Shown here: positions 40,711 through 49,744 of the stretch, one piece after another | Numbering within the stretch: position 1 is the stretch's first letter | Layout: the number at the start of each line of letters is the position of its first letter | DNA from: Candidatus Poseidoniaceae archaeon | GTDB taxonomy: Archaea > Thermoplasmatota > Poseidoniia > Poseidoniales > Poseidoniaceae | Assembly (NCBI GenBank): GCA_949372875.1 | Contig: CASIAW010000003.1 | Coordinates: 124,001 to 188,000, forward strand | DNA length: 64,000 nucleotides | Direction: 5' to 3' | Notes under the pieces: generated by a model | Told to the model about the DNA's origin: nothing | Seen by the model: the letters and a program-made list of their open reading frames with translations, nothing else | The model's database searches: none | Position numbers and translations under genes: made by a program

Positions 40711-41361
40711 ATGGTAGTAAAAAGCGCAACAAAAAAACGACTCATGGAGCTTGGAGTCTCCGAAGAGTTTGCACATAAATTAGCAACTGACCGAAACATG
40801 ACCGATATCAAGGCTATGTCCTCTGATGAAGTCGCCTCGACGCTCGGAGTTTCCAAAGACTCAGAACAATTCATTAGCACCATGTCGGTTATTGCCGAGC
40901 AAGGTTCACGCCGACGTTCAAAGTCGAAGAGTAAGAAAATTACAATTCGAGCAAAAGCAATTGATGATTTCGACCGACCTGAAATCACAATGCGATTCAA
41001 CGCTCTCAACCACGTTCTCGTTCCTCATCAAGAACTCGTTGGTGGAGCAAATATTTCTACTGAAGAGCAGTTCACTGTCGAAAGTGAAGAACTTGCTCCG
41101 TGGGAAATGGTTCAACCAGATGAAGAAACTGGGGAGCCACGACTTGCAAAGGAATGGCTACCTAAGATTTTGATTACTGACCCCGTTGTTCAAGTCATTA
41201 AAGAAACAGCTGAGGCTCAAGACAATGCTCGTCTTGCCGCAGACCCAGAACACAAACCACTCGCCGCAGGTTGGATCGCCGACCGCGTACTGAAAGTTAT
41301 CCGCAAATCACCATCTGCGGGCAAGACAGTTGCCTACCGACTCATCGTTGAGGGTAACTAA
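40711..41361 (+). CDS. rpoH: RNA polymerase subunit H (Rpb5-like) with N-terminal HhH-like extension
   Basis: C-terminus NHVLVPHQELV...LPKILITDPVVQVI...GWIADRVLKVIRKSPSAGKTVAYRLIVEGN is RpoH; first ~65 aa are an extra helical domain. Confidence 0.92.
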   Translation: MVVKSATKKRLMELGVSEEFAHKLATDRNMTDIKAMSSDEVASTLGVSKDSEQFISTMSVIAEQGSRRRSKSKSKKITIRAKAIDDFDRPEITMRFNALNHVLVPHQELVGGANISTEEQFTVESEELAPWEMVQPDEETGEPRLAKEWLPKILITDPVVQVIKETAEAQDNARLAADPEHKPLAAGWIADRVLKVIRKSPSAGKTVAYRLIVEGN

Positions 41362-41373
41362 GGAGGGTTTATC

Positions 41374-44300
41374 ATGCAAGAAATAATTCAATCATTTTTC
41401 AAAGAACGTAGCCTTGTCAACCACCAACTCGCATCGTATGACGATTGTATTCCGTCGGGCGATAACACCATTTCCCGTATGGAAAAAATCATCCGAAACA
41501 TTCGTGTTGGGACCGATGAAGAAATCAACGACGATGACGGCGGTTACATCAAACTCGACGTTGTCGACCACGACATCACTATCCGTTTGAAGAACATCAA
41601 ACTCGGAGAACCAACAATCCGTGAAGCGAATGGTGCTGAACACCCTTCGACTCCAATGGAATGCCGACTTCGTAAGTTGACCTACATGTCACCAGTCACC
41701 ATTGATTTCCAAATCTCTCGTAATGGAGTCCCTTCTCCCGTCGAAGCAGGCGTTCAAGTCGGAAGCATGCCAATCATGGTACGCTCGACCCGATGTAATC
41801 TCCATGCAAAGCACATTGCTGGAGAACGCCAATTGTATCCTACGACATCAGCAGAAGACTCTACAATGTGGGATGATTTACTTCGCAAGCGTGGTGAAGA
41901 CCCTCTCGATCCTGGAGGCTACTTCATCATCAACGGAACAGAACGTGTCCTCATCTCCATGGAAGACCTTGCGCCGAACCGTGTTACCGTTGAAATTAAC
42001 AAACGGTATGCAAAGCGAACTGAAGTTGCAAAGATTTTCTCTCAGAAAGACGGAATGCGCAAACCACTCAATGTTGAAAAGCGCCGAGATGGAATGCTCA
42101 TGGTCAAAATCAGCACTGCAGGAACTACTGCAATTCCAGTGGTCTTGTTGATGCGAGCACTTGGCATTGAAAATGACCAAGAAGTGTTCCAAACTGTTGC
42201 TGGGCCTACAGAGACCTTCAAGTATATCGTCGCCAATCTTAACGAAGTCAACGATAATGAAGAGTATGCAGTTCAATCCATGGTCGAAGCACACGAATGG
42301 TTGCAAAAGAAATTCGCAGCTGGACAACAAAAGGAATACCGTGAACAGCGAGTCAATCAATTGCTTGACCGTGAACTTCTCCCTCACTTGGGTGACCAAC
42401 CGACCGATCGAAAGAAGAAGGCAATTTTCCTTGGCCGTATTGTTCGTCAAGTTCTTGAAATGGCTCTGACGAACCGTGAACCAAACGACAAGGACCACTA
42501 TGCAAACAAGCGTGTTCGCCTTGCAGGTGACCTCATCGAAGATTTGTTCCGTGTTTCATCCGGTCAACTTGCTCGTGACCTTAAGTACCAACTTGAGCGC
42601 CACCACAACCGCAAGCGTGAACTGAAAATCACTTCATGCCTGCGACCAGACGTTCTCACATCAAAGATCATGCACGCACTCGCCACAGGTAACTGGGTCG
42701 GTGGACGCTCCGGTGTTAGTCAATTACTTGACCGAACAACATACCTTGCATCCCTCTCCCACATGCGCCGTGTCACTTCACCTTTGGTTCGCAGTCAACC
42801 TCACTTCGAGGCTCGTGACCTGCACCCGACTCAATGGGGCCGTTTGTGTCCAAACGAGACCCCTGAAGGTCAAAACTGCGGTCTTGTAAAGAACGCTGCA
42901 CAAATGATCGATATCTCGGAACACATCAGTGAAGTCGAAGTTCGAGAACAACTTGACGAACTCGATGTCAACAGCGAACTTGAAGATTGGAGTTCTGGCG
43001 ACAGAATTCACGTTAACGGTGATATCTACGGTATTCACAAGAACGGTAAGAATTTGGTTCGCCATTTCAAATCCGCTCGCCGACGTGGAACAATCCCTGC
43101 AGAAGTCTCTATCCGACACGACAAGGAAAACAAGGACATTTTCATCAACACTGACAAAGGACGTATTCTGCGTCCTCTGGTCATCTTGTATGATGGTGCT
43201 CCACGTTTGACTGGAGAACACCTCCAAGCTCTTCGAGATGGGGAAATGACGTTCAAGAATTTAGTCAATGACGGAGTCGTTGAATGGGTCGATGCAGAAG
43301 AAGAAGAAGACCTGCTCATCGCAGCACGTCCTTTCGTCCTTCCTGAAACCATCCCATCCGGTCCTTTCGAAGGACGGCCGCTTACCAACGAAAATGTGGA
43401 TTGGGTTAACCTTGGAGAACCGGGTGCAACCGAAGCTAACCTCGTTGCTAAGGTTCGTATGCCAAACGGTGACTGGGAATCAGCAGAAGTTTCTGTCCCA
43501 TTGCTGTATGACGAAGAATACACGCACTGTGAAATTGACCCTCAACTCGTTTTGGGTGTCTGTGCTTCACTCATCCCATACCCAGAACACAACTCAACAC
43601 CTCGTGTCACTGGTGGAACTGCAATGGTCAAGCAATCTCTTGGTCTTCCGAGTTCCAACTATCGTATGCGACCTGATACACGTGCTCACATTTTGCACTA
43701 CACTCAGACTTCGATTACACGAACTGCTGCAATGGAATCTACTCACTTCGATGAGCGTCCGGGTGGTCAAAACTTTATCGTGGCTATTATGTCTCTTCAC
43801 GGGTACAACATGCAAGACGCAGTTATCATGAACAAAGGATCTGTTGACCGTGCTCTTGGTCGTTCTACCTTTAACCGAACATACAATGCTGAACGCCGTA
43901 GGTTCCCTGGTGGTCAAGTCGAAGAAATCGAAAAGCCAGGCAGTTCACTTCAAGAAGTTAAGGGACTCAAACCTGAAGAATCTTACCGCCACTTGGAAGC
44001 TGATGGTTTGCCATTGCCTGAAATGTATCTTGAAGGTGGAGATGTTCTTGTTGGTAAAACAAGCCCACCTCGTTTCCTCGAAGAATCCGCAGGCGGTGCT
44101 TTCTTACTTGCTCAAGAACGCCGAGAATCCTCAATGCTCGTTCGCCATGGCGAAAAGGGCTGGATTGACAACGTCTATGTTACTGAATCACTCGACTCTG
44201 GTCGATTGGTCCGTGTCATGGTCCGAAGTCACAAGGTTCCAGAAGTTGGAGACAAATTCGCATCTCGCCACGGTCAGAAGGGAGTCATTGGACGACTTGT

Positions 44301-47900: not shown

Positions 47901-48185
47901 TTGATTAACGCAATGGATGACTTGAAGGTTTATGATGACCAAATGTTGTCTGTCCGAAATACTGCAAACCGTATTATTCAATTCAGTTACGGTGAAGACG
48001 GTATTGACCCTTCACGTGGTGTTCACGGTTCTCCTTTCAACATCGATGTTATCGTCGATGAAGCCCTTGGAACTGAAGGCGCTACTGTCGTAGTTCGAGA
48101 GTCGAAAGACCGAGACGAAAAGGAAGAAGACTTTGGCGGATGGGAACATGATGAGCCGGATACTCCTGAAGGAGGTGAGGCTTGA
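44982..48185 (+). CDS. rpoA1: DNA-directed RNA polymerase subunit A' with large insertion
   Basis: [82 protein letters not shown]. Confidence 0.97.
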
Positions 48186-49744
48186 TGGTCGTAAAGAGTG
48201 CAACCAAGAAGAAGCTCATGGATTTGGGTATCGCAGAAAATCATGCGCATGCTCTTGCCGATGACAAGAAGTGGGACGATGTAAAAATCCTCGCCGCTGG
48301 TGAAATCGCTCAAATCTGTGAAACAGATTCCGAGACTGCTGCTACCATCAAATCAACGATTGATGCTGCAAGTAAGAAAGGTGGAGATTCAAACAGTGAA
48401 AACACCGGTCCAACAACTTCAGTCCGACTCCGTCGAACTGGACGTTCGATTGCCCGTGCAAAGACCTCAGTTGCAATGACTGATTACAATGTTGAATCGA
48501 AACTTCTAGAATATGAAGACGAACTGGCTCAAGACCCTGTGTTCAAGTCACTCGTCGCTGCAGTTGAAGAGAATGGTTCCTCCCGGTTCACCAACCGGAT
48601 TTTCCACGATCTAACCGTTGCTATCCACGCCCGTGGTAAGAAGAAACTCACCAAGCCACAAGCTAAGAAAGTGGTCGGCGAGGCAGTCGTTGCTCTTGAC
48701 CGAGCAAGTATCGACCCCTACGAAGCAGCAGGAATTATCACTGCTCAATCAATTGGAGAACCTGGAACTCAAATGACCATGCGTACGTTCCACTATGCGG
48801 GTGTAGCAACAGTCAACGTCACCCAAGGTCTTCCTCGTATCATCGAAATCGTCGATGCTCGAAAGGTTCCAAATACCCCAACCATGATTATTTACCTGGC
48901 TGGAGAAAAGAGTACCTCCGCTGATGAAGCACGTAAGCTTGCTGCAGCCATTGAAGAAACCCACACTGTGAACATTGCTTCTCTCGAAACCGACGTTGCT
49001 CAGCGACGCTTGGTCTTGAAGCTCAACAAGGGCAACCTCAAGCAAAAGAACATGACTGGTGCAGAAGTTAAGGATAAACTTGAGCGTGCTACACGTCTCT
49101 TGGTTCAAGCTGATAAAGAAAAGAACCCTTCCACATTAACCCTGATTCCAGGCGTTCACACAGAGGAAGACCTTGCTGAAATTGCTGAAAACCCACCGTC
49201 CTATACCATGCTCTTGCAATTGGAAGAAAAGATTCGTGACATGCGACTCAAAGGTATTCCAAACATCGCTCGAGCAAACGTTCAACTGAACGACAAGACT
49301 GGTGAATACTATCTTTCAACAATTGGTTCGAACTTGACTCGTGTGAGCGAGATCGAAACCATTGACCGTAACCGGACCTACACAAACAACATCATCGAAA
49401 TCTTCGACTTCCTCGGAATTGAAGCAGCACGACAAGCAATTGTTAACGAACTACAAGCCACTCTTGACGGAGCACGCTTGGAAGTCGACGTTCGACACCT
49501 GCTCCTCGTTGCTGATGTTATGACCTCAGAAGGTGAAGTCCGAGCGATTGGACGTCACGGTGTGTCAGGGACAAAGCACAGTATCTTGGCTCGTGCAGCT
49601 TTCGAAGTTACCGTCAACCACCTGCTCAAAGCGGGTGTTATCGGTGAGAAGGATTACCTCACAGGTGTTGCAGAGAACATTATTGTCGGACAACCAATTT
49701 CACTTGGAACTGGCAGTGTTGAACTTTACTACATACCTGAGTGA
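48185..49744 (+). CDS. rpoA2: DNA-directed RNA polymerase subunit A'' with N-terminal HhH-like extension
   Basis: [81 protein letters not shown] at 48185 overlaps the rpoA1 stop. Confidence 0.96.

Follow-up and report, generated by a model that had tools for sequence, protein, structure and literature searches.

Two core subunits of the RNA polymerase encoded by a Candidatus Poseidoniaceae archaeon, RpoH and RpoA2, open with nearly the same residues, which raises the question of whether this shared N-terminal module is genuine, where it came from, and what it could do for the polymerase. An earlier note had read it as a duplicated HhH-like module that gives the enzyme two DNA- or factor-binding arms. 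The window analysed here is the whole stretch of 64,000 nucleotides, in which the genes concerned and their parts are as follows.

40589-40664: tRNA-Lys, ahead of the rpoH-rpoB-rpoA1-rpoA2 block
40711..41361, plus strand: rpoH (Rpo5), 216 aa, with N-terminal HhH module; PF01191 above cut-off at residues 144-212
40711..40908, plus strand: putative (HhH)2 module of RpoH, residues 1-66, from profile, model and structural matches
40909..41013, plus strand: basic linker of RpoH, residues 67-101, from charge and predicted floppy stretches 72-80 and 86-90
41014..41355, plus strand: Rpb5 assembly-domain core of RpoH, residues 102-215, from matches to archaeal RNAP chain H
41185..41280, plus strand: helical insert within the RpoH core, about residues 159-190, from alignment and model helix 158-177
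41374..44985, plus strand: rpoB, named from sequence and gene order
44982..48185, plus strand: rpoA1 (Rpo1N), named from sequence and gene order
48170..48179, plus strand: Shine-Dalgarno-like AGGAGGTGAG upstream of the rpoA2 start, from sequence; similar in relatives
48185..49744, plus strand: rpoA2 (Rpo1C), 519 aa; TIGR02389 above cut-off at residues 138-515
48185..48370, plus strand: putative (HhH)2 module of RpoA2, residues 1-62, from profile, model and structural matches
48371..48484, plus strand: basic linker of RpoA2, residues 63-100, from net charge

The identity of both subunits is established by family models: RpoH is the archaeal Rpo5 (PF01191, 33.6 bits against the Pfam cut-off of 23.5), its core aligning with archaeal RNAP chain H (e.g. 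9bct_H, Z 7.6, 34% identity), and RpoA2 is the archaeal Rpo1C (TIGR02389 equivalog, 426 bits against a cut-off of 420.65). Weak Pfam matches to CusF and condensin fell in other parts of the whole proteins and were taken as chance. The helical insert of the RpoH core is long in one Poseidoniales family and mostly short in the other. On the 3′ side of rpoA2 lie a small ORF that reads by eye as L30e-like (49792-50091) and, after it, a 1219-aa ORF (50116-53775) with many Asp-rich repeats, also noted by eye.

An N-terminal extension of this kind could be an artefact of a misplaced start, or a disordered non-HhH tail, the two outcomes that the earlier note had named as contrary to its proposal. We read 46 RpoH and 46 RpoA2 N-termini from Poseidoniales: the start codons agree across the order for both proteins, and the module is present on both in all 43 loci (40 genomes) that hold both genes. 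In the window, the rpoA2 ATG at 48185 shares one base with the stop codon of rpoA1 (TGATG). Differences between module codons reach 0.53-0.56 at the third position versus 0.15-0.25 at positions 1 and 2, and this concentration at third positions marks the region as translated sequence under selection. The conserved and matching starts, the overlap, the codon-position pattern and the order-wide presence thus rule out a start-site artefact, and the folded five-helix model described below does the same for the disordered tail, leaving either explanation a negligible chance. Two irregular loci were seen along the way: in one (L041; G206 C60) the RpoH module is in a different reading frame from the core, through a sequencing error or a real split, and one genome (G279) carries two near-identical RpoA2 copies on separate contigs (C14 and C24; L260, L251), which may be a strain mixture.

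The two modules share the opening MVVKSATKK[RK]LM[ED]LG, and an ungapped comparison in the window gives 23 identities over their first 50 positions; the module as a whole is about 62 residues long. The RpoH module, used as the sole query, retrieved the RpoA2 module of the same genome at E 6.5e-11, and a profile of 28 RpoH modules matched a profile of 27 RpoA2 modules with a probability of 99.7% and E 2.4e-26. These matches bear out what the earlier note had said from the letters alone, namely that the same module opens both proteins, at coordinates it had given correctly, and they establish common descent of the two copies. Residues V3, K4, S5, T7, K8, K9 and L11, together with A21 and H22, are kept order-wide in both copies. 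A recent conversion event between the two genes was considered as a source of this likeness and found no support: in the shared stretch, third-position identity is 0.48 within a genome versus 0.42 between genomes, that is, barely higher, so that the likeness is maintained by selection at the protein level.

As for the fold, the module profile searched against the PDB retrieved Topo V (1e-18), NAD-dependent DNA ligase (9e-5), NusA (5e-4), DisA (7e-4) and RadA (0.01). The AF2 model of the RpoA2 module has five helices (6-13, 18-27, 30-34, 38-45 and 49-65; mean pLDDT 81), and that of RpoH shows an RpoA2-like helix layout in front, with pLDDT mostly 86-90 in the module, near 50 in the linker and mostly about 90 in the core, which predicts a flexible tether between two confident parts. 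VIA-align of the module returned FANCM of the FANCM-FAAP24 complex as the best structural match, along with DisA, NusA AR1/AR2, UvrC, XPF, the RAD51 NTD and SAM domains, at Z 6.2-8.2, a range that may reflect no more than a shared helical arrangement and in which the sequence-profile matches are the stronger evidence. Foldseek with the module gave no E below 0.001, and the HhH assignment is therefore carried by the sequence profile. Neither single module from the window matched Pfam, including HHH_5 (PF14520), up to E 5, which places it as a divergent HhH relative by profile, below Pfam-level membership. By profile and model, the module is thus predicted to be an (HhH)2 domain, two HhH units in a five-helix arrangement; the HhH-like fold that the earlier note had suspected is upheld, and we hold both this fold and the RpoH-RpoA2 homology to be very likely. 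Since SAM domains are matched too, the fold alone cannot separate DNA binding from protein binding.

The distribution of the module differs between the two subunits. A phylum-wide RpoH search found module-bearing relatives in both Poseidoniales families and no match in 5 sampled genomes of the class's sister family; where RpoH was read outside Poseidoniales, it is of the canonical kind, measures about 82-118 aa and lacks the module, in keeping with the earlier note's view of canonical archaeal RpoH as the Rpb5-like part alone. Related modules, of the form MA[KR]xDTxxALxRRGI, stand at the start of RpoA2 in most of the other Thermoplasmatota families examined, and the RpoH profile matches the profile of these outgroup RpoA2 modules with a probability of 93% (E 3.5e-7). 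A profile search of 145 Thermoplasmatota genomes gave mostly three copies per genome in Poseidoniales and mostly one elsewhere. Beyond the phylum, RpoA2 carries the module in 14 of 295 Halobacteriota genomes, one of them Methanocellales. No RpoA2 match was obtained in 300 Thermoproteota genomes, which gave one weak match in a 307-aa frame, or in 152 Methanobacteriota genomes, where three partial matches fell in frames some 586 aa long, one of which reads like UvrC; a scan of viral contigs with RpoH returned no relative. On a tree of the RpoA2 core the module trait needs about 10 changes, at least 4 of them forced by well-supported branches, so the arm was gained or lost repeatedly. The earlier note had given this polymerase two arms; of these the RpoH copy is a local novelty, but the RpoA2 arm is not peculiar to it, being spread across Thermoplasmatota and present in part of the Halobacteriota.

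The RpoA2 N-terminus shows further variation among these relatives. In several families two or three ordinary HhH repeats stand on RpoA2 (L051, L053, L057, L062, L072, L076, L083 and L085), and the two tested match HHH_5 at E 6e-23 and 9e-19. In families f24 and f27 (L048, L058, L071, L081 and L087) a different N-terminal domain, with a YAVDFEVP...Y-type motif, takes the place of the HhH module, and in the class's sister family f3 (L088-L105) RpoA2 is about 760 aa long, with the HhH module and several hundred residues before the catalytic part.

A third copy of the module accompanies the two on the polymerase. It opens a 363-aa protein (G000 C8:78407-79495, minus strand; L153 592-1683) that is not a known polymerase subunit, has a zinc-ribbon-like CPxC...CxxC pattern and occurs in nearly all sampled Poseidoniales genomes; in the sampled genomes beyond Poseidoniales, one short module-only match was the sole hit. 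Searches against NCBIfam, Pfam and the PDB yielded nothing usable, no family model or chain accounting for the protein. Its gene adjoins one that reads by eye as KsgA/Dim1-like. This third copy means that the module has moved more than once, and the RpoH copy could conceivably be an independent gain, taken from an HhH protein of the genome other than RpoA2. However, in a tree of 94 modules, the RpoH and Poseidoniales RpoA2 modules lie together on one side of a branch supported at 100/100. The 363-aa protein falls outside this group, its module clustering with RpoA2 modules of other lineages, and we consider independent gain very improbable. The tree has 67 columns and its branching inside the RpoH/RpoA2 clade is weakly supported, so the direction from RpoA2 to RpoH is drawn from the distribution: the RpoA2 arm is very probably old, and the RpoH copy a duplicate seen only in Poseidoniales.

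Taking the evidence together, we propose, at a probability of about 0.5, one explanation for the locus: that the modules are auxiliary (HhH)2 arms of the polymerase, that the RpoH arm was copied from RpoA2, and that both serve mainly for docking. Each module would form an auxiliary arm, that of RpoH hanging from its flexible basic linker, and the copying of the old RpoA2 arm onto the RpoH N-terminus would have taken place in an ancestor of Poseidoniales. In archaeal polymerases RpoH abuts the largest subunit at its C-terminal part, and the new arm should project from the site taken by the jaw in eukaryotic Rpb5 and by Rpo13 in Sulfolobales, near downstream DNA. The arms would chiefly offer a docking surface to some transcription partner, much as the HhH domains of NusA AR2 and the alpha-CTD dock on each other, and nearby DNA may be held weakly by the lysine-rich tip and the basic linker; the 363-aa protein is a candidate partner. 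The two arms probably share one side of the enzyme, given that archaeal Rpo5 is without the Rpb5 jaw, that Rpo13 occupies part of that place in Sulfolobales (PMC2675907), and that contacts between Rpb5 and the C-terminal region of the largest subunit are numerous (PMC13257274).

What the arms would bind is the point on which the readings divide. They could be strict HhH DNA-binding arms that clasp downstream DNA by its backbone and increase the affinity for promoters or the processivity, and several features fit this: the profile relatives include the DNA-binding HhH proteins Topo V, ligase and DisA; residues 1-14 carry a charge of +3, and the linkers have order-wide mean net charges of +4.9 (RpoH, residues 67-95) and +6.7 (RpoA2, residues 63-100); and some related families add ordinary HhH repeats to RpoA2 (HHH_5 E 6e-23). 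The module itself, however, lacks the DNA-gripping motif hGhG with both glycines. Its first glycine is kept in 46/46 RpoH and 37/46 RpoA2 sequences, whereas at position 17, the place of the second, the residues listed (S, A, K, P, E and D in RpoH; A, D, P, E, Q and T in RpoA2) include no glycine; the second hairpin departs from hGhG further than the first, and the remainder of the module beyond the basic tip averages -5 across the order. The missing glycine and acidic body make a pure DNA arm rather unlikely and favour protein docking, toward which kinship with the NusA repeats also counts, since AR2, a dual HhH, binds the alpha-CTD and SuhB (PMC6614801). Taken on its own, the docking function stays a tentative assignment, at somewhat under even odds.

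Alternatively, the two modules may form a pair, in the manner of the XPF/ERCC1 or FANCM/FAAP24 HhH domains, and lock RpoH onto RpoA2. The presence of the same module on two adjacent subunits, the same N-terminal residues retained in both, and FANCM of FANCM-FAAP24 as the top structural match would suit such pairing, but it is common for relatives to have the module on RpoA2 only, so that the RpoA2 arm needs no pair, and we regard this as distinctly improbable. Returning to the docking proposal, the matching modules on RpoH, RpoA2 and the 363-aa protein might even constitute one interaction system, an independent archaeal counterpart of the alpha-CTD/NusA network on the downstream face, though this extension is doubtful.

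The bacterial alpha-CTD, an HhH domain that a flexible linker tethers to one end of a core subunit, in this respect resembles the RpoH arm, although it is C-terminal and on a different subunit from either module. It was absent among the profile matches listed (E up to 10) and among the fold matches listed, where the NusA repeats did appear; the analogy drawn by the earlier note stands as a parallel of design. NusA AR1/AR2 are, like the module, dual HhH in transcription and match in both profile and structure, but they are bacterial and sit on an elongation factor, whereas the module is on core subunits. The Rpb5 jaw is, like the RpoH module, an extra N-terminal domain before the assembly domain and near downstream DNA (PMC2675907); it is, however, about 130 residues long, and the matches listed for the RpoH N-terminal part are SAM, NusA and FANCM, the jaw not among them, with Rpb5 rows aligning at about residues 101-216 only. 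Rpo13 of Sulfolobales, a small helical element beside Rpo5 (PMC2675907), is comparable with the RpoH arm, except that it is a separate HTH subunit and the arm a fused HhH domain. The RpoA2 modules of other Thermoplasmatota and some Halobacteriota are homologous to and in the same place as that of Poseidoniales RpoA2; in these lineages no RpoH copy was seen, and some families add two or three HhH repeats or other domains.

HhH is a known fold, and its domains often occur in fusions. To judge from the open literature that was searched, the RpoA2 HhH arm across Thermoplasmatota and its RpoH copy in Poseidoniales are new: no description of HhH arms on the polymerase of Poseidoniales or Marine Group II was found there. 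The archaeal polymerase core is usually held to be fixed, with regulation left to separate factors. Here a core subunit apparently gained a domain copied from its neighbour, where eukaryotes (the Rpb5 jaw) and Sulfolobales (Rpo13) added pieces of their own. Whether adding domains on the downstream side of the enzyme is a recurrent solution thereby becomes a testable question, and the finding points to one specific, unstudied protein, the 363-aa protein, in the widespread ocean archaea Poseidoniales (Marine Group II).
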